Both the position numbers and the translations under genes were made by a program. Below the pieces are notes generated by a model. That model was given only the letters and a program-made list of their open reading frames with translations. It was not told the DNA's origin and ran no database searches. Shown one piece after another: positions 1,166 through 21,691 of a DNA stretch of 24,022 nucleotides. Origin of the DNA: a virus; IMG/VR virus record IMGVR_UViG_3300044703_000140, positions 1 to 24,022 of that record. The stretch is one strand, 5' to 3'. Each line of letters starts with the position of its first letter. Positions within the stretch are counted from its first letter, which is position 1.

Positions 1166-2356
1166 TCATCGTTGTGGCATCCCGGCGTGCACCACGCCGG
1201 AGACCACCACGCCGGGCGCTCGGGCCGGGTCGCTGCCGAGACCGAGGTAGGTCTCGGTGACCTCGATGGACGAGTGTCCCAGCCAGTCCCGGATCTCGGT
1301 GATCAGCGCCCCATTGCGGTACGCCTCCTGCGCGGCGAAGTGCCGGAACTGGTGCAGGTGCAGGGTTTTAGCCAGCGGCGCCAGCTCCCGCGCGGCGGCC
1401 CGGATGACCGGGTCGGCCGACTCGGGGTTGAGCAGCTTGCACAGCCTCCGCACCAGCGACGTGAGGCCGCCGGGCGTGAGCCGCTTCCCGCTGGCCGTGG
1501 TGAACAGCGGCTGCTCGGACCGGCGACTCGAGACCTGGCCGAGCACCGCGACCTCGGTGGTGGTGTCCGGCGCGACACGGGTCGGCAAGTAGGTGTCGAT
1601 CGCGTCCATCTCGGCGTCGGGTACGCGGACCCAGCGTTTTTTCGAGCCCTTGCCGTGCACGTAGAACTCGGGGACGCCGTGGCGGCCGGTGCGGTACAGG
1701 TCGGGGATGTCCAGGCCGCACAGCTCGTCGGCGCGCAGGGCGGTGGCGGCGAGCGTGGCCACGATCGCCTGGTTGCGTTCGCGCTGGTCGGTGGGGTCGC
1801 AGGAGGCGGCCACGCCGAGCGCGCGGACCTGGCCGATGGTGAGCGCGACGGTCGGCTTGTCCGGCTGTTTGCTGGTCAGGCCGAGGTTCTTGCGCTCCTG
1901 TCGGGTCAGCAGGTCATCGGGGTTGATCGTCGTGAGCTTCCGACGCCGCATCATCTGGTACCAGGAGCGCACGGTGCCCAGCCGCTGGCGGGCAGTGCCG
2001 TTCGAGTCGCCTGCCTCGCGCAGGAACAGCAGCCAGGCTTTGAACGAAATCTCGGTGATGTCGGTGAACGGGTTGAAGCCGTAGCTCACACACCACCGGA
2101 AGAACGCCTGCTGGACGTCGTCGTTCGAGCGACGGCCGAAGTTGTGATCCTTCTGCGGTCGCCAGCTCTGCTCGGCCGAGGGGATGCCGAGGTTCGTGGC
2201 GTACCCGCTGAGGGTGCCGAACTTGGTGAAACTGCCCTTGAGCCAGGTGAGCGATTCGTCGACGGCGAGCCGCACCCAGTCCGGTTCGACGTATTCGGCT
2301 ACGTCCGTCTCGTCCGGGTCAAGGTGCTCGGTTTGCACCAATTCACTAACGGTCAC
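1166..2356 (-). CDS. int: Tyrosine recombinase / integrase
   Basis: A complete 396-aa tyrosine recombinase that would integrate or excise the element by site-specific strand exchange. The N-terminal core-binding (SAM-like) domain covers roughly residues 30-145. The catalytic domain, about 170-375, shows the expected residues: Arg208 in ALRADEL, a Lys in GKGSKK (236-240), His335-x-x-Arg338 in HQFRH, His361 in LGHSS and the nucleophile Tyr370 in ETYLGL. Length is normal for phage and actinobacterial integrases and nothing looks broken. The GTG start at 2356 has only a weak SD. Promoter-like elements lie 90-120 bases upstream in the AT-rich divergent region. Three small genes follow on the same strand. 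No excisionase of a known type is recognisable nearby. Confidence 0.95.
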   Translation of the reverse strand: MTVSELVQTEHLDPDETDVAEYVEPDWVRLAVDESLTWLKGSFTKFGTLSGYATNLGIPSAEQSWRPQKDHNFGRRSNDDVQQAFFRWCVSYGFNPFTDITEISFKAWLLFLREAGDSNGTARQRLGTVRSWYQMMRRRKLTTINPDDLLTRQERKNLGLTSKQPDKPTVALTIGQVRALGVAASCDPTDQRERNQAIVATLAATALRADELCGLDIPDLYRTGRHGVPEFYVHGKGSKKRWVRVPDAEMDAIDTYLPTRVAPDTTTEVAVLGQVSSRRSEQPLFTTASGKRLTPGGLTSLVRRLCKLLNPESADPVIRAAARELAPLAKTLHLHQFRHFAAQEAYRNGALITEIRDWLGHSSIEVTETYLGLGSDPARAPGVVVSGVVHAGMPQR

Positions 2357-7367: not shown

Positions 7368-8645
7368 ATGGCCCTCACGAAGACGCCGTCGCCGAAGGTC
7401 CTGGCCGCCTGGGAAGGGCTGAACCTGCGGCAACGGGACTGGTTGCGGGTGATCTATGGCGCGGACCAGGACGAGGAGGAGTACCAGAAGGGCGCGTTCA
7501 ACCGCGGGGACAAGCGCATTCCCGCGTCGGTGTGGCGGTGGCAGGAGTACGAGCCGACCCGGCGCCGTCGCCGTGGCAAGACCGCCAAGCGCGGGCTGCT
7601 CCAGGAGCGCCTGGATGAGCTGGAGATCCGCGATCCCGGTGCGGGTTCCACCATCAAGGTGCTGGCCGAGCGCGGCCTGATCGAGGTCCGGTACGAGGCG
7701 AACGACCCGTCGGCCAACAGGATGGCGATCAAACTCACCACACACGGCCGCGCGGTCGGCCGCGCCGGTGGCGTCGACGACACCCGGCCCGGTCGGCGCA
7801 ACGCGGCTCGTCCGCTGAGCGAGTCCCTGTGGCGGATGCTCGCCCAGGTAGCCGCCGCCGGGGACGATGGGCTGCCACCCCGGTACGGCTACGTCCACGA
7901 AGCCTGGCAAAACCTGATCGGCCCCGGCCTGGTCGAAGTCCGCACCGAAGCCGGCCTCGGCACGCGCCTGCAGCTCACCGACGCCGGCCGGGAGCACTAC
8001 CGGGGCGAGTGGACGGGGTACGTGAAGATGTATCCCGCGGTCAACGCGGTCGACCCGCACGGCGGGACGACCTGGCCCGTCGAGGTCGATCGGGCGCTAC
8101 GTGGCCTGCGTGCCGCGTGCCGGGAGCTGGCCATCGAGCAGCGGAACGTGGCCGAGCAGCTGAAACGGTCGGCGCCCACACCGCGCGTGGTCGACAAGGC
8201 CGCCGGGCCGGAGGTGGCTCGCGCGACCGCGCTGCACAACCGGCGGGTTCGCCACGCCGTTCGTGAGCACGAGCTACTGGTCGAACACCGGACCGAGCTG
8301 GAGCAGCTGCGCCGGGCGGCGGCTGGCCGGCATCTGGCGGTGGCGGCGGCCGTGGTGACCGCCGTGGTCGAGGACGCTGACCCGCTGCTGGCTCTTCGCG
8401 CCGAGCCGCTGGTGCTGGGAATGACCACCGATCTGCCGTACCCGAAGGTCGGGGTGGTCGGCGTCGACAAGGACATCACCACCGCACGGCCGGGCACGTC
8501 CCATCGACGCGGCAAGCGAGCCGTGCCGCCTCCGGCGGCCGAGGTGCCCACCCAGGATGCCGAGGCGTACGCGCAGCACCTGGACGCACTGGTCCGGGGC
8601 GGCCACCTCAGCCGCCTGCTGCTGCGCCGGAATGAGACCCCCTGA
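7368..8645 (+). CDS. Double winged-helix protein, 425 aa
   Basis: Two winged-helix-like modules can be seen. The first covers about residues 18-130 and ends LAERGLIEVRYE...IKLTTHGRAVGRA. The second, about 148-215, has LIGPGLVEVRTEAGLG, then LQLTDAGREHYRGEW. The pattern helix, GLVEV strand, then LTDAGR strand is typical of MarR-like wings. A long charged helical region (about 225-320, many Leu, Glu and Arg) follows, then a Pro-rich, basic C-terminal third. This suggests a DNA-binding regulator or structural DNA protein of the element. The ATG lies one base after the upstream stop with no clear SD, so it is probably translated by coupling. Confidence 0.75.
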   Translation: MALTKTPSPKVLAAWEGLNLRQRDWLRVIYGADQDEEEYQKGAFNRGDKRIPASVWRWQEYEPTRRRRRGKTAKRGLLQERLDELEIRDPGAGSTIKVLAERGLIEVRYEANDPSANRMAIKLTTHGRAVGRAGGVDDTRPGRRNAARPLSESLWRMLAQVAAAGDDGLPPRYGYVHEAWQNLIGPGLVEVRTEAGLGTRLQLTDAGREHYRGEWTGYVKMYPAVNAVDPHGGTTWPVEVDRALRGLRAACRELAIEQRNVAEQLKRSAPTPRVVDKAAGPEVARATALHNRRVRHAVREHELLVEHRTELEQLRRAAAGRHLAVAAAVVTAVVEDADPLLALRAEPLVLGMTTDLPYPKVGVVGVDKDITTARPGTSHRRGKRAVPPPAAEVPTQDAEAYAQHLDALVRGGHLSRLLLRRNETP

Positions 8646-11494: not shown

Positions 11495-11926
11495 TCAGCT
11501 TCTGGTGCGGTGCACGGGGTAGGTGACGCTGGCCTGGAGTGCCCAGACCAGGAACGGGTTCGGCGGGGTGCCCTTGACCTGTTTGGCGAACACGACGTTC
11601 GAGCCGCCTTTCGGGACGAATGCCAGCATCTTGGCTCGCTTGGGCCGGATCGGGCCGCGACCGGCGTACACGCCGGTGCCCTCGTGGACGAAGATCGCGT
11701 AGAACAGGTCGGAGTAGATGCGGCCGACGACGACCAGGCCGTCGATGATGATCTCGGTCTTGATGCTTCCGGCGAGCGCGCCGGTCTCGCTGTGGACCTT
11801 GCCTCGGGCGAGCAGCTGGACTCTTTTGGCGAGCATGTCCATTTGGACAACGACGGGTCCGGCGCGACCCGCGATCAGGTTCCTGATCGCGAGGGCGTCG
11901 AGCTCGACATGGGTGAAACCGGCCAT
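11495..11926 (-). CDS. HK97 gp10-like head-tail joining protein
   Basis: A 143-aa protein of the HK97 gp10 type, which completes the head-tail joint of tailed phages. Diagnostic features are the HEGTG turn (about residues 81-85), the PIRPKRAKMLAFVPKGG segment and the KGTPPNPFLVWAL end, where the family has a conserved motif before its last helix. Length is typical (about 130-150 aa). The start shares one base with the stop of the upstream gene (TGATG). It is the last gene of the virion operon. In related phages tail-chaperone and tape-measure genes come next, but here the strand changes and no such genes follow. Confidence 0.85.
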   Translation of the reverse strand: MAGFTHVELDALAIRNLIAGRAGPVVVQMDMLAKRVQLLARGKVHSETGALAGSIKTEIIIDGLVVVGRIYSDLFYAIFVHEGTGVYAGRGPIRPKRAKMLAFVPKGGSNVVFAKQVKGTPPNPFLVWALQASVTYPVHRTRS

Positions 11927-12213
11927 CAGGACCCTGGTGGCACGTGCGGAGGCTGCGGCCGCGTTGTCGACCGGTCGAACTCGTCATAGGCGGTCTGCGG
12001 GCGCCCGACGGACTTCATCAGCCGGTACAGCGCGTCCTCGTGGTGGCGGCGGCCGAGGACGGCGGACGCCTTGTCGGACTCGGGCATGGCCATCACCGCC
12101 ACGAACAGCTTCGCGAAGGGCACCTCGAGTGCCTTGATCGCGTTCATCAGCTCGATCTCGTCCAGAGTGAGGTCGCGTTGGCCGGTGATGATGCGGTGCT
12201 GGTTGTCGACCAT
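11926..12213 (-). CDS. acb2: Acb2-like cyclic-nucleotide sponge (anti-CBASS)
   Basis: A 95-aa protein matching the Acb2/Tad1 hairpin domain family: NQHRIITGQRDLTLDEIELM then NAIKALE at residues 4-30, and a second helix ending LYRLMKSVGRPQTAYDEF (about 63-80), corresponding to the family's 'RAVAxPTxF' end. Known members are phage proteins that form hexamers and trap the cyclic di- and trinucleotide signals of CBASS defence; some also act on Thoeris signals. From memory, ligand contacts in the Pseudomonas phage protein are a Tyr in GYR and a Lys in NxxKA. Here the Tyr is Gln12 and the Lys is kept (Lys27), so specificity may differ. The ATG has an SD (GAGGAAAGG). Its place inside the virion operon would make it late-expressed unless other promoters exist. 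Confidence 0.8.
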   Translation of the reverse strand: MVDNQHRIITGQRDLTLDEIELMNAIKALEVPFAKLFVAVMAMPESDKASAVLGRRHHEDALYRLMKSVGRPQTAYDEFDRSTTRPQPPHVPPGS

Positions 12214-12231
12214 GGTCGGGTGCCTTTCCTC

Positions 12232-12558
12232 TTAGGGGACGTCGATTCCGTTCACGCTGGGGCCTGCGGGTTGTTCGGCGTTGGGGCTGGTGGTCGGGCC
12301 GGGCGCGGGGCGCAGCTGCTGACCGGCTTGGTTGCGGGGGTCGACGTACGGCGTGGTGCGCCGGTCAGCCCACCAGCCGACGACCAGCGGCACGATCACG
12401 GCGACGGCGCCGAGGATCGCGGACTGCTGGTCGAGGCTGATAGGCAGTCCGAAGGAGACTCCGAGCGTGATTAGTACGGCCACGGCGGCGCCAATGCCAC
12501 CGCTGGTTTTGCCAGGGTTCCGCGCGGCCGCGCCGACGTTCTGCGTAGACAGTGACAC
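12232..12558 (-). CDS. Holin-like two-helix membrane protein, 108 aa
   Basis: Two transmembrane helices (about residues 21-38 and 46-63) are separated by a short PISLDQQSA turn and followed by a WWADRRTTPY basic stop. A Pro/Asn-rich tail makes up the last 40 residues. This matches the topology of small actinophage membrane proteins commonly called holins, which open the host membrane for lysis. No endolysin is in the window, so a lysis role is inferred from shape alone. The GTG start has a clear SD (AAGGAG). It lies between the 44-aa membrane protein and the Acb2-like gene, all on one transcript. Confidence 0.6.
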   Translation of the reverse strand: MSLSTQNVGAAARNPGKTSGGIGAAVAVLITLGVSFGLPISLDQQSAILGAVAVIVPLVVGWWADRRTTPYVDPRNQAGQQLRPAPGPTTSPNAEQPAGPSVNGIDVP

Positions 12559-12588: not shown

Positions 12589-12723
12589 TCACTTTCCTGA
12601 CTGGATCCAGGCGTATCCGACGAGCAGCAGCACCAGCACCGCGGCGAACACGATGAGAGGTCGCCATGCGACGGAAAGGCTGTGCTTCCACCGTCTTCGC
12701 GGCGCACTGCGCTGCCGGTTCAT
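12589..12723 (-). CDS. 44-aa single-pass membrane protein
   Basis: A basic N-terminus (RQRSAPRRRWK) is followed by one hydrophobic helix (about residues 21-40, LIVFAAVLVLLLVGYAWI) and a three-residue polar end. The positive charges suggest the N-terminus stays inside. The ATG overlaps the stop of the upstream PKD protein (ATGA, 12720-12723), so the start at 12723 is preferred over the 68-aa reading from 12795. Together with the next gene it makes a pair of small membrane proteins of the kind seen in phage lysis modules, where one may modulate the other. That pairing is inference. Confidence 0.6.
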   Translation of the reverse strand: MNRQRSAPRRRWKHSLSVAWRPLIVFAAVLVLLLVGYAWIQSGK

Positions 12724-13763
12724 GGACTGTCTTCCGTGGGGTAAGGGATTGTCACGGATCGTCGGGTGGACGAGTCGGTCACGGTGACCGGCCATGGTCC
12801 TTGTCGGGAGTAGGCGTGTGTGGTGGGCTTCTGGACTTGCTCACCGGTGATCTGCTGGAGCGGGGTTCCGTCGCCCCAGTCGATGAAGTAGGTCGTGGTG
12901 TCCGGCGGTTCGTCGAGGGTCAGCACGGCGGTGAGCGCCTGTGCGGGGTGGCCAGTGATGGCTGCCTTGGGCAGGTGGTCCTTCACGGATACCGAGCTGG
13001 TGGCCACGACGTCGCGTTCGTCGGCGTCGACCGCGGTGACCACGTAGGTCCCGGGCGCAAAGTAGGCGTGCTCAACGGGTGTGTTCCGGGCTACCTGCAC
13101 GAACGACGTTCCGTCGCCCCAGTCCAGCCAGGCCGAGTTGTTGCCGAAGCCGCCGAGGGTGACGCTGACGGTCAGCAGCTGGCCGGGGACCGGGGTCCAG
13201 ATCATCGCCAGGGACACGGGGCAGCAGTCGGTCCGCATGACCTGGGCGGTGGCGGTCGTGCTGCCACAGCCGCCTTCAGGGCCGTTGTTGACGATGCTGG
13301 TGATCTGCCAGTCGGAGTCGTTGTCGGCCAGCCACTGGTTGCAGTGGAAGGCCCGGTGCAGCGCGACGACGTCCTTGGCCTGGCCCTCGGCGTACTCCGC
13401 GATGGCCTGGGGGTCCGGCTCGGCATCCGGCGGGTTCAGGGTCGGAGCGCAGCGATAGACGCCGACTTCCACGGTGATCATCAGCTCTCCGCCGCCGCAG
13501 GCGCGCGGGACGTATTGCTGCCCCTGGAGGTTCGTCGTCGTGGTGGCGGAGACGAACCGCACCCACGCGCTCCCCTGGCCGGTGGTGCCGTCGGGGCTTT
13601 CGCAGGTGCAGTCGCACTTGTCGGCCGGCATCGGATGACCGGCGGCGTAGATGTGGAACTCGCACACGGGTCGTTGGAAGGCGCCGAGCTGCACGGCGGT
13701 GCTGGTGCGCAAGGCGTTCAGCAGCGGCCACAGGGTGAGCTCGGGGGCGAGCGAGTTCGGCAT
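12720..13763 (-). CDS. Tail-terminator-like protein with two PKD domains
   Basis: Residues 1-185 form a Cys-rich domain that by position and pattern (LWPLLNALRT at 11-20, GGELMITVEVGVYRC at 91-105) resembles actinophage tail-completion or tail-terminator proteins. The second half has two PKD (Ig-like) domains: about 190-260 with WLDWGDGTSF then HAYFAPGTYVVTAVD, and about 270-342 with FIDWGDGTP then HAYSRQGPWPVTVTD. Each shows the family's WGDGT loop and HxY-x-GxY strand. PKD domains on virion proteins usually face outward and bind surface sugars or proteins. The ATG at 13763 comes nine bases after the adaptor gene. Naming the first domain is less sure than the PKD calls. Confidence 0.7.
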   Translation of the reverse strand: MPNSLAPELTLWPLLNALRTSTAVQLGAFQRPVCEFHIYAAGHPMPADKCDCTCESPDGTTGQGSAWVRFVSATTTTNLQGQQYVPRACGGGELMITVEVGVYRCAPTLNPPDAEPDPQAIAEYAEGQAKDVVALHRAFHCNQWLADNDSDWQITSIVNNGPEGGCGSTTATAQVMRTDCCPVSLAMIWTPVPGQLLTVSVTLGGFGNNSAWLDWGDGTSFVQVARNTPVEHAYFAPGTYVVTAVDADERDVVATSSVSVKDHLPKAAITGHPAQALTAVLTLDEPPDTTTYFIDWGDGTPLQQITGEQVQKPTTHAYSRQGPWPVTVTDSSTRRSVTIPYPTEDSP

Positions 13764-13772
13764 GGTGGCTGG

Positions 13773-14831
13773 TCACCCGCCATCGCTGTGTGGGTACTGG
13801 CCGGTGGTCCACTCTGATCGCACCTCGGGCAGGTCGACGGAGTACACCGCCGCGGGCGAGCGCAGGCCGCGCGGGTTGATGGTGGACAGCCACAGGTCGA
13901 TCTCGGTGATGCCGGTGCGGCCACGAGTCAGGAAGTCTTGGGGGTCAATGAGCTTGTAGCTGACGCCTTCGCGTTCGATCGTGGTTACCCGGGCCGGGAT
14001 CTTGCAGTCGCCGCCCTTGCAGGCCTTCCACAGTTCGCACGCCAGCAGGGCCACGGCCCGCTTCCCACCGGTCGGTACCGGCTGCCCTCGCCAGTAGACG
14101 ATGCCGAAGGTGCCTTCGGCGGTGTTGTCGGTGCCGAGCTGCCGCATGGGGAGGTCGAGGCGCTGGCAGTCCGGGAACCGGCCGCCGTCGATGCGCATCA
14201 GGCGGTTGCCGTACAGCTGGAGCGCGTCCTCGGAAAGGAGTTTCCCGTCGATCCACACCTCGAGTGTGTGCCGGTACATCGGCACGCGTGGTGGCTGGGG
14301 TTGCGCTGCAGGTGCTTCGGCAACGTGAGCAGGCTCGGTGGCGCGTTGCCAGAAAACGGGGCCGGGCAAGAGGATTTCGGCGGTGGGACCGCATCCGCAG
14401 CTCTGGGGTTGGGGGTGACCGCAGGTGATGTTCATCCACCTGCCGTCGATGATCGCCGGGCTCACACGGGGGTTGCACCGGAGCTGGTCGAGGTCGCGTT
14501 GCCGGCATGGCCGCACGGTTTCGCGGCAGAGGCCCATGCGTCCGGCGACGAGCCGCCACAGGATCTCGGTGGCGGCTTCGACGGCGTAGCGCTGGATGTC
14601 GGTGAACGTCGTTGGATCGTCTGGGAGACAAGAACATCCGGGTTGCAGTGGCCATGTGCGGCACGGTCCGCCGGGGACGCTGAGTTCCCAGGTCCCGTCT
14701 GGGTCGACCGGCGCGGTCTGAGTGGCGTATCCGGCGGCGAATCCCGGCACGGCAACGGGTTCTGCGGGCGCGGGTGCGGCCGGGGCGGGCGGTGCCCACT
14801 CCGGCCGCTGGTTGTGCGGGGGCTGGGTCAT
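13773..14831 (-). CDS. Head-tail adaptor protein, 352 aa
   Basis: The C-terminal half (about residues 170-340) follows the pattern I know from actinophage head-to-tail adaptors: EVWIDGKLL, DCQRLDLP, GTFGIVYWRGQPVP, LLACELWKACKG, CKIPARVTTIEREGV, DPQDFLTRGRTGI, IDLWLSTINP. An upstream region has paired Cys (QPGCSC, CGCGP) and is preceded by a Pro/Ala-rich N-terminus. This protein would sit on the portal ring and connect head to tail. ATG 14831 overlaps the previous stop (ATGA, 14828-14831); the very long in-frame extension up to 15758 is antisense-like Arg/Pro shadow and is rejected. The many Cys may bind metal or form disulfides. Confidence 0.75.
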   Translation of the reverse strand: MTQPPHNQRPEWAPPAPAAPAPAEPVAVPGFAAGYATQTAPVDPDGTWELSVPGGPCRTWPLQPGCSCLPDDPTTFTDIQRYAVEAATEILWRLVAGRMGLCRETVRPCRQRDLDQLRCNPRVSPAIIDGRWMNITCGHPQPQSCGCGPTAEILLPGPVFWQRATEPAHVAEAPAAQPQPPRVPMYRHTLEVWIDGKLLSEDALQLYGNRLMRIDGGRFPDCQRLDLPMRQLGTDNTAEGTFGIVYWRGQPVPTGGKRAVALLACELWKACKGGDCKIPARVTTIEREGVSYKLIDPQDFLTRGRTGITEIDLWLSTINPRGLRSPAAVYSVDLPEVRSEWTTGQYPHSDGG

Positions 14832-16015
14832 CCCCGCTTCGGCGTCTTCGGGTCGTTCGGGCCGGAAGTGCCGGTGTCCTCGGGCTTTTCGCCGTCGGTC
14901 TTGGTGGTGTCGTCGGCGGCGAACCCGGCGGCCGCGGTGACGACGATCGGCTTGGTCACGGGCGCGGAACCGTTGCTGGCGGTCACGATCACCGAGTAGT
15001 TGCCCGCAGCGGCATAGGTGTGGTCGGCCTTGCCTGCCGCGATCGGTGCTACGGCGGTGTCGTCGCCCCAGTCGACGGTGCCGGTCTGGCCGACGTCGGC
15101 GGCGTTGGTGACGACGAGGTGCTGGATCAGCTTGTTCGCCCCGGCGTCCGGCGTGATGGTGACGGCCGGGGCGGTGGCGTCGGGATTCCACAGTGGCTGG
15201 GCACCGCAGGCTGCCTCGGGTGGTTTCACGGTGACGATCTCGGCGTGGAAGTGGTCGGGGTCGCCTGTGGAGATCAGCGGCGGCGTGAGCGTCGGGTTGT
15301 TGAAGCCCGGGTCGATCGGGTCGAGCAGCACGGCCGGGGCGCCGGCCAGGTCGCGGGTGACCTTGTACGGGCCCTTCCCCCACAGTGACCCGGCTTTCGT
15401 GCGGCCCTGCAGAGTCCAGGTGGTGGGCGCGTTCTCGAATTTCATGGCGTCGGGGGCCATGCCGACGCAGAAGGGCAGCAGCAGGTAGCCGTTGACCTCG
15501 AAGTCGTCGCTGCTGGAGGGCTGGAGGCAGGCCTGTCCGGCGCCCTTGCCGGAGACCTTGGGCCAGCACTCGATGGCGAAGCCGTCGAGGTCGGTGACCT
15601 TCTCGCCGATGCGGAACCCGGTGGTGGTCTGGCGGCTGGCGTCGGTGACGCGCTTCCAGGAGCGGGACATCATCAGGAAAAGTTCGGGGTCGACTTCGCA
15701 GAACTCGATCTTGTACGTCAGCCAGGTGATGGCGTCCTGGCCGCGGTCGTTGACGCACAGCTCGCCGCCTGCGTTTTTGGCTTTATAGCTTTCGCCTGCC
15801 TCTACCTCGGGGGTGATCTCGATGGTCAGGAACCCGCTCGTGGTGACCTGTGCTCGTGGGCCGTACTTCGGTCGGCCGCAGGTGTCGAGCATGGTCACGC
15901 GCATTCGCCGCGCGCCGATGAACGACGCGCACAGCGACGCCGGGGCGGGAGCGGCGGCGAGCAGCGCGGACGGGGCGGCGGCGGGAGGTGCGTCCAGCAC
16001 GGCGGTCATGGTCAT
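14828..16015 (-). CDS. Major tail protein-like, with C-terminal PKD domain
   Basis: Residues about 35-275 resemble an actinophage major tail (tube) protein: LDTCGRPKYGP, TTSGFLTIEITPEVEAGE, NAGGELCVND, IEFCEVDPELF, NGYLLLPF, FENAPTTWTLQGRTKAGS, WGKGPYKVT and FHAEIVTVKPPE in the order I expect. A PKD-type Ig-like domain follows (about 285-362: TVDWGDDTAV, HTYAAAGNYSVIVTAS), then a charged, disordered tail. Ig-like decorations on tail-tube proteins are known from other siphoviruses. ATG 16015 is chosen because it overlaps the upstream stop (ATGA) and follows GAAGGGGA; the 422-aa reading from 16096 is not. The identification is by pattern memory and should be checked. Confidence 0.7.
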   Translation of the reverse strand: MTMTAVLDAPPAAAPSALLAAAPAPASLCASFIGARRMRVTMLDTCGRPKYGPRAQVTTSGFLTIEITPEVEAGESYKAKNAGGELCVNDRGQDAITWLTYKIEFCEVDPELFLMMSRSWKRVTDASRQTTTGFRIGEKVTDLDGFAIECWPKVSGKGAGQACLQPSSSDDFEVNGYLLLPFCVGMAPDAMKFENAPTTWTLQGRTKAGSLWGKGPYKVTRDLAGAPAVLLDPIDPGFNNPTLTPPLISTGDPDHFHAEIVTVKPPEAACGAQPLWNPDATAPAVTITPDAGANKLIQHLVVTNAADVGQTGTVDWGDDTAVAPIAAGKADHTYAAAGNYSVIVTASNGSAPVTKPIVVTAAAGFAADDTTKTDGEKPEDTGTSGPNDPKTPKRG

Positions 16016-16963: not shown

Positions 16964-19291
16964 TCACTTCTTCACTCCGCCACGGCCGCTGGCCGGTGGT
17001 GTCGTCGGAGGCTGGTCGTCTCCAGTGCCGGTGTTGGCGGTGTTGCTGGCCTTGGTGGTGTCGGCGGGGGGCTGGTCGGTCGGTGCCGGCGGGGTGTCGC
17101 CGCCGTCCGGGGTGTCGGCCTGCTGGGCTTCGGCGGCCGCGGGGGTCGCGGTGATGGCCCTGGTGAACAACGGGGTCGCCTCGGCGGATCCGGGCACGGG
17201 CTTGGGGCAGGCGTCGCGGCGGGGGCCGACGGCGCCGTTGGCACAGAGGTCGGTGAGGGTGACGGTGAACGTGCGGTTGCAGCGGTTCAGCAGCATCCAG
17301 GCGTCTTCGACGAACATGGCCGAGTAGCGGTTCTGCATGAGCAGCTGGAAGTCGTAGAGAACGCCCAAGGTCAGCACGTTGCCGACGGACAGCACCCAGC
17401 TGCCCGCGGGGTAGGCCATCAGCTCGACCTTGTTCGGCCAGTCGGCGGGCGGCATGATGTTGCCGTTTACCGCTGCGCCGTCACCGATTTCCTGCCAGTC
17501 CTTGACCCACTGGACTCGGGATGCGTAGGTGGCGAAGAGTTCTTCGACCTCGGCGTCGGACACCGCGCCGTAGGGCCGGTTCGACTTCTTTTCGATGTCG
17601 CGCTTGAGGAACTCGGAGAACCATTCTGGGGCAACGATTTCGAGGGTGGCGCTCTTGGCCATCTTGTACCGGCCGCGGAACCACGTGACGAGCAGCGCGA
17701 GCCGGTCGGTGGCGGTCAGCGCGGTCGAGCCGAGTGAGCCGGGGCCGTTGGCGACGCTGAACGGGGGGACGGGATCGGAGTGCGATCGGATGTAGTCGAT
17801 GTACGTGCCGTTGAGGTAATGCGCTTGGTGGACAAGGACATCTGACATGAAGCGTTGCAGGCCTTCGGGGAAGGTCCTGTCCCGCAGCACATCCGAGGTG
17901 ATGCACAGGTACGACAGCGATTGCCGAACCTCGCGCCATTCGACGCAGGGCCCTTCGATGCACTTTTTGACGTTGCCCAGGCCGCCGTTCACGCCGTCGG
18001 GCGGCGTGCCGTTGGGCCTGAAGAAGCCGGGGTTGTCCAGGCCCTTGCCTGGGCCAGGGGCGGCGGCGGGCGGCTCGGGATAGACGATGACGTTGCCGTG
18101 CCACCCGTTGCGGGCGGTGTCGAGCTCCTGTTCGGGGTACTGCGACCAGCGCGGGTAGCGGATGCCGCCTCGTGAGGGCATTCCGGTGCTCGGGATGTCG
18201 ATCAGGCCGTCCACTGTGGCCAGTGGCGGGCACAGCGTGAAGTCCGTTTCACTCGGCGTGCACCAGACGTCGTTGATGATCGACGGGGCTTGGCCGGGGA
18301 TTCCGGCGACGCCGTCGGCGGCCGCGGTGAGGCTGTGCTTGCGGCGGTACCGCGCGGCCGCGACGAGCGAGCCACCCGGCAGACGCGTTTCGTCGGCGAG
18401 GTGGTCGAGCAGCGCGATGTCGCTGTGCTCGCCCTTGAGCGTGATCTCCGGAGCGAAGTGCCGGTTGACCCGTGCGACGTTGGCTTTGATCGGCCCGGCG
18501 GCCTCCTGCCCGACGGGCAGCGTGGCGAACCGGGTCGCGGCGGCGTCGGCAAGCTGCTCCAACGTCATGGCCTGGCCGAACGGGTATTCGGGGATTTCGG
18601 CGCTGGCGGTGATCGAGAAAGAGCGCAGCGGCTTGACCAGCGCCCCGGGAGCAGGAGTGGTTGCCGGGACCGGTGCGTTCCGTCCGGCGAGTGCGGCGGT
18701 GGTGGAGGTGCGGCGCGCGGGAGCGCCGGCCCCGGCGGCGACCGGCTCGCCGGGCGGCGGGGTGACGGGCTGGTCCGGGTCCTGCGGCTGGGCCTGCCCG
18801 GCGGGCGGCGGCGCGGTCTCTCCTCCGTCGCCACCGCCCACCGCGGGCACCGCTGGGGGAAGCGGTGCCTGTTCGGCAGGCGCAGGGGGCACCTGCTGGG
18901 CTTGCTCGGGCTGCTGAGGCTGCTGCCCGTTGTCACCAGTGGTGCTGCCGTCCTGCGCGGATGCGACCGGGTCTGCGGGCGGGGTGCGGACCCGGTCGGC
19001 GAGAGCAGTGACTTGCTGGTCGCGGGCGATTTTCGCGGCGTTGTGCTCGGCGATGAGCACGCGGGTCGCGGCGATGACGTCGGCGACAGCTTCGATGGTC
19101 GGGACGTTCGCCGGGTCGTACTCGCCTCCGGCGTAGAGGTCCTCGAAGTGCGCTTGCCCAGCGTGCTCGAGCGCGGCCAGGTCGACGTCACCGGCAGCGC
19201 GGAGCTTGTCGAGGATGAGCGCGATGCGCTGGTCGCCCGCCGGGAGTTCAGACCCGGTGGCGTGCGCGATCAGGTCTTTGAGCAGGTCCAC
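16964..19291 (-). CDS. Major capsid protein with scaffold-like N-terminus, 775 aa
   Basis: The last third has actinophage major capsid features: EWREVRQSLSYLCITSDVLR, a long helical spine (FPEGLQRFMSDVLVHQAHYL), then GSWVLSVGNVLTLGVLYD, NRYSAMFVEDAWMLLNRCN and FTVTLTDLCANG in order. The core is about residues 365-700. Ahead of it lie a helical, charged domain (1-104), likely an internal scaffold like the HK97 delta domain, and a Pro/Gln/Ala linker (104-225). A disordered Pro/Thr tail makes up the last 60 residues. At 775 aa it is about twice the usual length. GTG 19291 is chosen because GGAGGT lies four bases upstream; GTG 19339 lacks one. The fused MuF-protease upstream would remove the scaffold part. 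Confidence 0.85.
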   Translation of the reverse strand: MDLLKDLIAHATGSELPAGDQRIALILDKLRAAGDVDLAALEHAGQAHFEDLYAGGEYDPANVPTIEAVADVIAATRVLIAEHNAAKIARDQQVTALADRVRTPPADPVASAQDGSTTGDNGQQPQQPEQAQQVPPAPAEQAPLPPAVPAVGGGDGGETAPPPAGQAQPQDPDQPVTPPPGEPVAAGAGAPARRTSTTAALAGRNAPVPATTPAPGALVKPLRSFSITASAEIPEYPFGQAMTLEQLADAAATRFATLPVGQEAAGPIKANVARVNRHFAPEITLKGEHSDIALLDHLADETRLPGGSLVAAARYRRKHSLTAAADGVAGIPGQAPSIINDVWCTPSETDFTLCPPLATVDGLIDIPSTGMPSRGGIRYPRWSQYPEQELDTARNGWHGNVIVYPEPPAAAPGPGKGLDNPGFFRPNGTPPDGVNGGLGNVKKCIEGPCVEWREVRQSLSYLCITSDVLRDRTFPEGLQRFMSDVLVHQAHYLNGTYIDYIRSHSDPVPPFSVANGPGSLGSTALTATDRLALLVTWFRGRYKMAKSATLEIVAPEWFSEFLKRDIEKKSNRPYGAVSDAEVEELFATYASRVQWVKDWQEIGDGAAVNGNIMPPADWPNKVELMAYPAGSWVLSVGNVLTLGVLYDFQLLMQNRYSAMFVEDAWMLLNRCNRTFTVTLTDLCANGAVGPRRDACPKPVPGSAEATPLFTRAITATPAAAEAQQADTPDGGDTPPAPTDQPPADTTKASNTANTGTGDDQPPTTPPASGRGGVKK

Positions 19292-19326
19292 CGTGACCTC
19301 CGGAGCACAAACACTGGACAGGTGTC

Positions 19327-19349
19327 TGCATCCGGCCACGAGTCGCCAG
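19327..19349 (-). repeat. Leader repeat copy A (capsid gene)
   Basis: A 23-bp element (plus strand TGCATCCGGCCACGAGTCGC and three more bases) in the 5' leader of the capsid gene, about 36 bases before its GTG. It matches copy B at 21 of 23 positions and copy C at 20 of 23. Confidence 0.6.
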
Positions 19350-19756: not shown

Positions 19757-21691
19757 TCAGGCTCCCTCGCGAATTCTGGTGGCGGAGGCGGCGAGCGCGG
19801 TCGGATCGCTGAGTGCGCGGCGCCGGGCCGCGGTCACGCGCTGGTCGACGGCTTGGGCCGCTTTGAACTGGCGGTAGAGGGTCGTGCCGTCGATCGCGGA
19901 GGCGGCGGCCAGCTGCGGGGTGACGATTCCGGCGGCGGTCAGGGAGATGCAGCGGCCTTCGGCGTCGCGGACGGCGTGCTGGCGGGCGGAGGCCAGGATC
20001 GGCTGGTCGGGTCCGGCGGCGGCCGCGAGCGCGGCGACGGCCTGGTTGTTCGGGTTCAGCTCGAACGCCTCGACGGTGACGCAGCAGGACGCCACGAGTT
20101 CGTCGGACATCCAGTGCCCGGACTGGTAGTAGGTGTCGAGCAGCGCCACCTGGAACGGGCTCACGCCGGGGCGCAGCGTGCCGGCGGCCCAGATGCCGTT
20201 CTCGTCTTCGCCGACGACGACGTTCGCGGCGACGAACCGCGGGTCGTCGTAGTGCTTCTGCACGGCCCACAGGTTGATCTCGCCGGTGTCGCCGTGGCCG
20301 TTGGTCGCGATCGGGCCGGTGAGGACGCGGCCGCCGTCGGAGGTCCTGATCGGGTGCCTGTGGAATTTCGGGTAGGTGCCGCCGTACGGGTCGCGCGGGG
20401 GCGGGCAGTCGTAGACGCGGTGGCGGGCGTCCCAGTCGGCGATGTACCCGGCGACCCAGCCCTTGTCGTTGACGACGGCCAGCTTGGTGCCACGGGAGAG
20501 CTTCGGCGGGGCGAAGCAGGCGGGGTCGGGTTCCATCGGCACGTTGGTGCTGATCTGTTCGACCCAGGCGAGGTTGCCGGCGTCGGCGCGCAGGATCGGC
20601 GGTGGTTCGGTGACGACGGTTTGCGCGGTCGCGGGAGCGGGCGGGGCGGCCGCCGCGCCGGGTGCAGACGGTGCTGCAGCGGGCGCGGCGGCCGCGGGCT
20701 CGGTGGCGGCGGGGACGGTGGTGGCGGCTGCGGTAACTCGTGTTCCGGCGCCCGGGGCGGTGACGGGCTCGGCGAGTGGCGCGGTGGTGGCCGGCGGGGC
20801 GGCGGGCGGTTCCTGTCCGGCTGCGGCCAGGGGTCCAGGGTTGGTCATGGCGTTTCTCCCGGTGGTGTCGAGGTTGTCCGACGCTGGCTGGGTCGGGTCG
20901 AGCCAGCCGAGGACGCAGCGGCAGCTGGCGGTGTTGTGGATCGAGGCGGTCGGGTCGTGCGGGAACCGCATCGCTTCCCCGCCGACGTCGAAGGTGTGGC
21001 CGGTCGGGACGGCTTGTCCGTCGGCGTCGCGGTGTGCGGGCCGGGTGACGTCGTCGTCGACGGCGTGCCAGATCTTCAGCAGGGTCTCCCCCAGCTGGTC
21101 TTGGCGGGCCAGGCCAGCGTCGTAGATGCCGGAGTTCAGGGCGGTGTGGGAGATGTTGCGGGAGCTGTTGTCAGCCCTGGCGAGCCAGGTGGGCAGCGTG
21201 AGGACGGTGGTGAGGCGTTCCCGGAGGGCGGCCGGGTCGGCATGTTCGGCGTTGGCGTCGAGCACGGTCTGCCGGACGATGTCGTAGAGGTGGTCGGGGA
21301 ACGGATCCCCGACCAGCTGATCCCGGATGGTGTCGTGGGTCCGCTGGGCGGCGTCGCCGGGCGCGACGTACGGAGCGAGGTCGGATGGCAGCGTGGCCGT
21401 CCAGGCGTAATTCCACACGCGGCTGACGGCCTCGAGGATTTTGGTGATGACGGTGTTCCAGACCGACCGCGGGGGCCAGGCATCGAGGTTGGGGGGCAGC
21501 TCATCGTCGGGGCCGTTCGGCGCGGCGGTGAGGTGGGAAGCGGTGTGCCGGTCGAGAACGGCGTCGCGGGCGGCGGCTAGGTAGAGCGCGTAGGCGGCGC
21601 GGGTGGCGCTGGTGACGGCGTCGACCGCGTCGATGCCGGCCTCGCAGCCGGGCATCGTGGGCGGGAGCCAGGAATCAGCAACGTCGGCCAC
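19757..21691 (-). CDS. MuF head protein fused to capsid maturation protease
   Basis: The N-terminal part (1-281) ends in the Mu F/SPP1 gp7 signature: WHAVDDDVTRPAHRDADGQ, then FDVGGEAMRFPHDP and NTASCRC (about residues 208-259). MuF proteins bind the portal and enter the head with DNA. After a Pro/Ala linker (282-365) comes a protease domain (about 370-545) of the actinophage capsid-maturation type: GWVAGYIADWDARH, YPKFHRHPIRTSDGG, KHYDDPRFVAANVVVGEDENGI, AAGTLRPG. It would cleave the capsid scaffold. The GTG start at 21691 has only a weak SD (GAGG). An internal ATG at codon 282 has a good SD, so the protease could also be made alone. Confidence 0.8.
   Translation of the reverse strand: MADVADSWLPPTMPGCEAGIDAVDAVTSATRAAYALYLAAARDAVLDRHTASHLTAAPNGPDDELPPNLDAWPPRSVWNTVITKILEAVSRVWNYAWTATLPSDLAPYVAPGDAAQRTHDTIRDQLVGDPFPDHLYDIVRQTVLDANAEHADPAALRERLTTVLTLPTWLARADNSSRNISHTALNSGIYDAGLARQDQLGETLLKIWHAVDDDVTRPAHRDADGQAVPTGHTFDVGGEAMRFPHDPTASIHNTASCRCVLGWLDPTQPASDNLDTTGRNAMTNPGPLAAAGQEPPAAPPATTAPLAEPVTAPGAGTRVTAAATTVPAATEPAAAAPAAAPSAPGAAAAPPAPATAQTVVTEPPPILRADAGNLAWVEQISTNVPMEPDPACFAPPKLSRGTKLAVVNDKGWVAGYIADWDARHRVYDCPPPRDPYGGTYPKFHRHPIRTSDGGRVLTGPIATNGHGDTGEINLWAVQKHYDDPRFVAANVVVGEDENGIWAAGTLRPGVSPFQVALLDTYYQSGHWMSDELVASCCVTVEAFELNPNNQAVAALAAAAGPDQPILASARQHAVRDAEGRCISLTAAGIVTPQLAAASAIDGTTLYRQFKAAQAVDQRVTAARRRALSDPTALAASATRIREGA
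20846..20863 (-). promoter_or_regulatory. Internal SD and in-frame ATG before the protease domain
   Basis: On the minus strand GGGAGAAACGCCATG places a GGGAGA SD six bases before ATG 20848-20846, which is codon 282 of the MuF-protease frame and lies exactly between the two domains. Initiation here would give a separate 363-aa protease starting MTNPGPLAAAG. Confidence 0.5.

Follow-up and report, generated by a model that had tools for sequence, protein, structure and literature searches.

Acb2 proteins of phages sequester the nucleotides with which bacteria raise the alarm during phage attack. The closest described systems are Acb2 (p26) of the Pseudomonas phages PaP2 and PaMx33 (8h2j, 8h2x, 8ixz) and Acb2 of phage T4, Vs.4 (7uq2). 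Binding-site variants of this protein are on record: T4 Acb2 Y8A is binding-deficient, a natural T68M change in phage Bas35 lowers binding (PMC12657230), and natural variants have been published for T4-like phages, including an acb2 mutation in phage T2 that probably disrupts the dinucleotide site (PMC12657218). Panoptes detects a sponge through the depletion of its own decoy nucleotide, and retuning away from the OptS nucleotides has been proposed as an escape; no residue names were found in that paper (PMC12657218). According to a review, acb2-deleted phages escape CBASS via capsid mutations (PMC10419184). Tad1 carries an N-terminal antiparallel beta-sheet ahead of C-terminal helices (PMC12043709). 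For actinobacteriophages, Acb2-like proteins have been published from Statler (PMC13348362) and from Xandras and BigBubba (PMC11953737).

The DNA analysed here, called the window, is an IMG/VR virus record of 24,022 bases that may be fragmentary; in it, a preliminary description had proposed an Acb2-like anti-CBASS protein with a changed ligand residue, encoded in an actinomycete virion operon.

The acb2 gene and its operon

The open reading frame is on the minus strand, from 12213 to 11926, and encodes MVDNQHRIITGQRDLTLDEIELMNAIKALEVPFAKLFVAVMAMPESDKASAVLGRRHHEDALYRLMKSVGRPQTAYDEFDRSTTRPQPPHVPPGS; the plus strand at 11926–12213 encodes nothing similar to this 95-aa Acb2-like protein. Both motifs quoted in the preliminary description are present, at residues 4–28 and 64–74, and the N-terminal motif NQHxxIxG-R-L--EI---N--K is intact, its Lys included. 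Codon-position GC is 0.68/0.42/0.91, with similar values in the neighbouring genes. By its coding-like composition, its ribosome-binding site and a 1-nt overlap of its TGA with the ATG of the next virion gene (TGATG), the reading frame looks like a real gene. The features of the window are as follows.

11926..12213, minus strand: Acb2-family protein, 95 aa; hairpin core at residues 13–70, extra C-terminal tail at about residues 77–95
12223..12232, minus strand: Shine-Dalgarno sequence AGAGGAAAGG, 9 nt 5' of the acb2 ATG
11495..11926, minus strand: tail-completion/Neck1-like protein, 143 aa (phrog_5, E = 1.1e-9); 1 nt of its ATG is shared with the acb2 TGA
12232..12558, minus strand: holin-like protein, 108 aa, encoded immediately upstream of acb2 (phrog_9752, E = 4.5e-5, a weak match)
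13773..15758, minus strand: reading frame whose C-terminal part, at residues ~365–640, is a head-tail adaptor (phrog_783, E = 7.9e-58; actinobacteriophage matches)
16964..19339, minus strand: major capsid protein, 791-aa reading frame (phrog_777, E = 2e-86, homology at residues 239–709; actinobacteriophage matches)
19757..21691, minus strand: MuF-like/capsid maturation protease region, 644 aa (phrog_859 and phrog_18402)
1166..2356, minus strand: tyrosine integrase (PF00589, E = 2.7e-17; the best matches, at 38% over 96% of its length, are on plasmids of Saccharothrix and Amycolatopsis)

The placement in a virion operon was therefore upheld, with the holin-like gene upstream, the tail-completion gene downstream, and the adaptor, capsid and MuF/protease genes further upstream. 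The same operon encodes a 347-aa protein with PKD domains (12720–13763, minus strand). Since homology to adaptors lies mainly in the C-terminal half of the 661-aa frame at 13773–15758 (minus strand) and its codon-position GC is atypical (0.80/0.59/0.68), its true start is probably further in; the first ~240 residues of the capsid frame (16964–19339, minus strand) lie outside the matched region and may be a fused domain or an over-extended start.

A late-operon position is not unusual for Acb2 homologues, which stand beside lysis genes at four loci of the homologue set (L002, L003, L005, L010) and among virion genes at two others (L004, L006). An uncultivated virus (L176) has portal and MuF proteins in the same actinobacteriophage-dominated families as those of the window, and a canonical Acb2 in which Tyr, Lys, Arg, Thr and Arg are kept (8004–8243, plus strand) was observed there between the portal and MuF/protease genes. 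Some homologues are labelled 'NAD/FAD-utilizing enzyme' or filed under 'Rz-like spanin' in their records (MZ868717, which is L002, MT104468 and its relatives; PP003914), and in PQ015601 (L003) the gene is without annotation.

The capsid, MuF and adaptor proteins of the window matched mostly phages of Mycobacterium, Gordonia, Microbacterium, Arthrobacter and Streptomyces, at ~28–35%, in a phage collection that is itself rich in actinobacteriophages. From these virion-protein matches and those of the integrase we infer that an actinomycete host is likely, and the host given in the preliminary description stands at that strength, as a deduction from the matches. Viral contigs searched with the window protein, and again with the window capsid protein, yielded no relatives, and hence no close relative that could show purifying selection.

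Homology searches and structure prediction

Membership of the Acb2/Tad1 hairpin family, as first proposed, was borne out by profile search. Pfam PF24729 (Acb2/Tad1 hairpin) matched the window protein at 28.3 bits (E = 2e-6), a small margin over the cut-off of 27, phrog_29522 matched its N-terminal part (E = 1.2e-12), and the solved Acb2 chains 8h2j and 8ixz were matched by phmmer at E = 2.9e-5 and 6.4e-5, respectively. The closest phage homologues, from Pseudomonas phages, were 47% identical over 76 residues, and an NCBIfam search with the window protein gave no match.

An AlphaFold2 model was produced for a single chain from an alignment of 84 sequences, and had helices at residues 17–28, 30–42, 48–70 and 75–82, with a pLDDT of ~98 in the hairpin. 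The expected antiparallel helical hairpin was thus recovered, and in a Foldseek search of the PDB, ranks 1–9 were all Acb2 or T4 Vs.4 (probability 0.98–1.00), the next being ROP (0.41); Foldseek E-values were weak for so short a model (0.02–0.11, best 0.02). In VIA-align, ranks 1–3 were Acb2 or Vs.4, and 8h2j_B gave a Z of 7.7 (rmsd 2.1 over 71 residues) against at most 6.3 for unrelated rows, a value that is not decisive by itself for a helical hairpin and agrees with the sequence evidence.

Taken at face value, a PF24729 score barely over its cut-off might point to a chance similarity in a protein that is no Acb2 homologue; that is scarcely credible beside the N-terminal match, the retrieval of solved Acb2 by both sequence and fold, and the identity to the Pseudomonas phage homologues. 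By PF24729, the sequence match to solved Acb2, the predicted hairpin and Foldseek, the window protein is a true Acb2 homologue. An identification as Tad1 was rejected: the two share the Pfam hairpin domain by name, but the model is all helical without strands, the protein has only 95 aa, and the beta domain of Tad1 is missing.

Against p26 Acb2, the window protein shares the N-terminal motif, the predicted long antiparallel helices and the equivalent of Lys26, and differs in having a shorter segment to link its two long helices, a C-terminal tail of 18–20 residues and a host that is probably an actinomycete. T4 Vs.4 and the window protein have the hairpin fold in common, as well as the Lys in their N-terminal helix. 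Among actinobacteriophage proteins, gp101 of mycobacteriophage Xandras likewise matches PF24729 (59 bits) but is without the NQHxxIxGYRDL N terminus, and gp57 of Microbacterium phage Statler, Acb2-like per its authors (PMC13348362), is likened here by description. Xandras gp101 (L251:15262–15459, plus strand) is 'hypothetical' in its GenBank record.

Conservation of the ligand site

Homologues were collected from 249 loci (window included), reduced to 196 distinct sequences and then to 116 representatives at 80% identity, with L225 treated as a non-homologue and L200 as a truncated reading; the titled matches of the genome-contig scan for homologues were all from Proteobacteria in the broad sense. 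Residues were compared in p26 numbering, in which Tyr11 and Lys26 are what we take to be ligand contacts and Arg67 presumably has a role in the trinucleotide pocket. The annotated length of T4 vs.4 is 88 residues, the last of which also ends the aligned stretch, and this gives the Tyr of the GY motif number 8 and the Thr of AKT number 68; by profile alignment, these correspond to p26 Tyr11 and Thr74, and to Gln12 and Arg56 of the window protein. The codons concerned are as follows.

12178..12180, minus strand: Gln12, at the p26 Tyr11/T4 Tyr8 position by alignment; Tyr in 112/116 representatives, Gln in none
12133..12135, minus strand: Lys27, at the p26 Lys26 position, retained; Lys in 115/116 representatives
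12067..12069, minus strand: Ala49, at the p26 Arg67 position; Arg in 104/116 representatives
12046..12048, minus strand: Arg56, at the p26 Thr74/T4 Thr68 position; Thr in 104/116 representatives
12013..12015, minus strand: Lys67, at the p26 Arg85 position; Arg in 113/116 representatives

The window protein therefore carries Y11Q, R67A, T74R and R85K relative to p26, and keeps K26. A Gln at the Tyr contact position with the Lys retained, as read in the preliminary description, was confirmed by this alignment; the accompanying suggestion that ligand range may differ was right about Tyr to Gln and understated the change, a conserved Thr (to Arg) and a conserved Arg (to Ala) being lost as well. 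Within the conserved ligand-site set (p26 Y11, K26, T74), Lys is kept and both Tyr and Thr are replaced, and the protein was for this reason filed as a diverged family homologue, not as a canonical Acb2.

An IMG/VR DNA-pattern scan left open at the Tyr codon was run to avoid search-pattern bias, and the 80 loci read among its listed matches comprised 78 with Tyr, 1 with His and 1 non-homologue; a pattern demanding Gln at this position returned two chance matches to unrelated stretches and no homologue. Both scans may lack records close to the window. Elsewhere in the set, the exceptions at Tyr are L198 (His) and L160 (Cys), and single changes at the p26 R67, T74 and R85 positions are seen in other homologues. 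Together with the shared fold and N-terminal motif and the retained Lys27, these precedents would suit an ordinary anti-CBASS sponge of the usual ligand range, in which the substitutions are tolerated. Such a reading is rather improbable, given that Tyr is found in 112/116 representatives and in 78/79 homologues listed by the unbiased scan, that Y8A in T4 Acb2 removes binding and T68M in phage Bas35 lowers affinity (PMC12657230), and that the combined change at p26 positions 11, 67 and 74 occurs in no other genuine homologue of the set (L225 has all three and looks unrelated). Because Tyr and Thr are lost at two sites whose mutation in T4 Acb2 removes or weakens binding, canonical dinucleotide capture is in doubt, and on this comparison of residues it is doubtful that the window protein would capture canonical 3',3'-cGAMP.

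Two further homologues were noted. That of Vibrio injensis (L160:6001–6279, plus strand), with Cys at Tyr11 and Asp at Thr74, is the sole other genuine homologue with both positions changed; three Tyr exceptions are too few for a claim that the Tyr and Thr changes are coupled. The protein of an uncultivated virus of 66% GC (L036:6001–6231, plus strand), which is the closest to that of the window in the tree (82/85) and starts MVDNQH like it, is a possible intermediate, with His at Thr74 and Lys for Arg85, and unlike the window protein it keeps Tyr11 and Arg67.

Eighteen columns of the alignment are conserved, each in at least 88% of representatives, and the window protein breaks 7 of them, one through a shifted start Met only, compared with 0–4 in other genuine homologues (4 in L036). 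Its end branch in the tree is 2.8, five times the median of 0.53, and its PF24729 score of 28 bits compares with 48–61 bits in three compared relatives. All three measures could mean that binding of immune nucleotides has gone, leaving a relic of Acb2 or a hairpin with another role in the late operon (such as contacting another protein during lysis or the assembly of virions), and natural loss of acb2 is documented in T4-like phages (PMC12657230). The long end branch fits relaxed constraint as well as it fits retuning, and the branch and the number of changes together agree with loss of binding almost as well. Against such a loss stand the intact frame with its coding-like codons, the ribosome-binding site, the overlap into the following gene, and the retained N-terminal motif and Lys27; we regard it as unlikely, though a serious contender.

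Discussion

With moderate confidence, the window protein is best explained as a diverged Acb2-family sponge of a temperate, most likely actinomycete phage, with a remodelled pocket and a ligand range that probably differs. The rebuilt dinucleotide pocket makes a range unlike that of canonical Acb2 probable, and, given the preserved N-terminal motif and a gene that seems to be maintained, we favour a sponge whose ligand range has changed over one that has lost binding. The protein would be translated from the late virion operon beside the holin-like and tail-completion genes, would assemble as a hexamer by analogy with other Acb2 proteins, and may sequester a nucleotide immune signal late in infection, so that the host effector would stay off; co-expression with capsid genes would fit a defence that is triggered late. 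The altered range might serve another host signal or escape decoys of the Panoptes kind; the acb2 mutation of phage T2 and the retuning proposed for OptS nucleotides are a precedent for selection on this site. In its more specific form, this would be a natural specificity switch, an actinomycete phage having rebuilt the Acb2 pocket (Tyr to Gln, Thr to Arg, Arg to Ala) either to capture a different immune nucleotide or to block CBASS while sparing Panoptes-type decoys, which we put forward as a tentative possibility.

The host group, which the preliminary description had marked as unusual, is most likely actinomycete and is not new on its own, given the earlier reports from Statler, Xandras and BigBubba. 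The novelty lies in the joint replacement of several conserved ligand-site residues in a homologue of the p26 type whose host is likely an actinomycete.

Across phages, the residues of the Acb2 binding site vary very little, and sponge specificity is under two-sided selection according to the work on Panoptes. With a natural variant that has multiple pocket residues changed, one can ask directly if this fold accepts retuning to other signals or simply ceases to function. The window protein widens the known divergence of the family, and does so in phages of a host group for which few experiments support nucleotide counter-defence.
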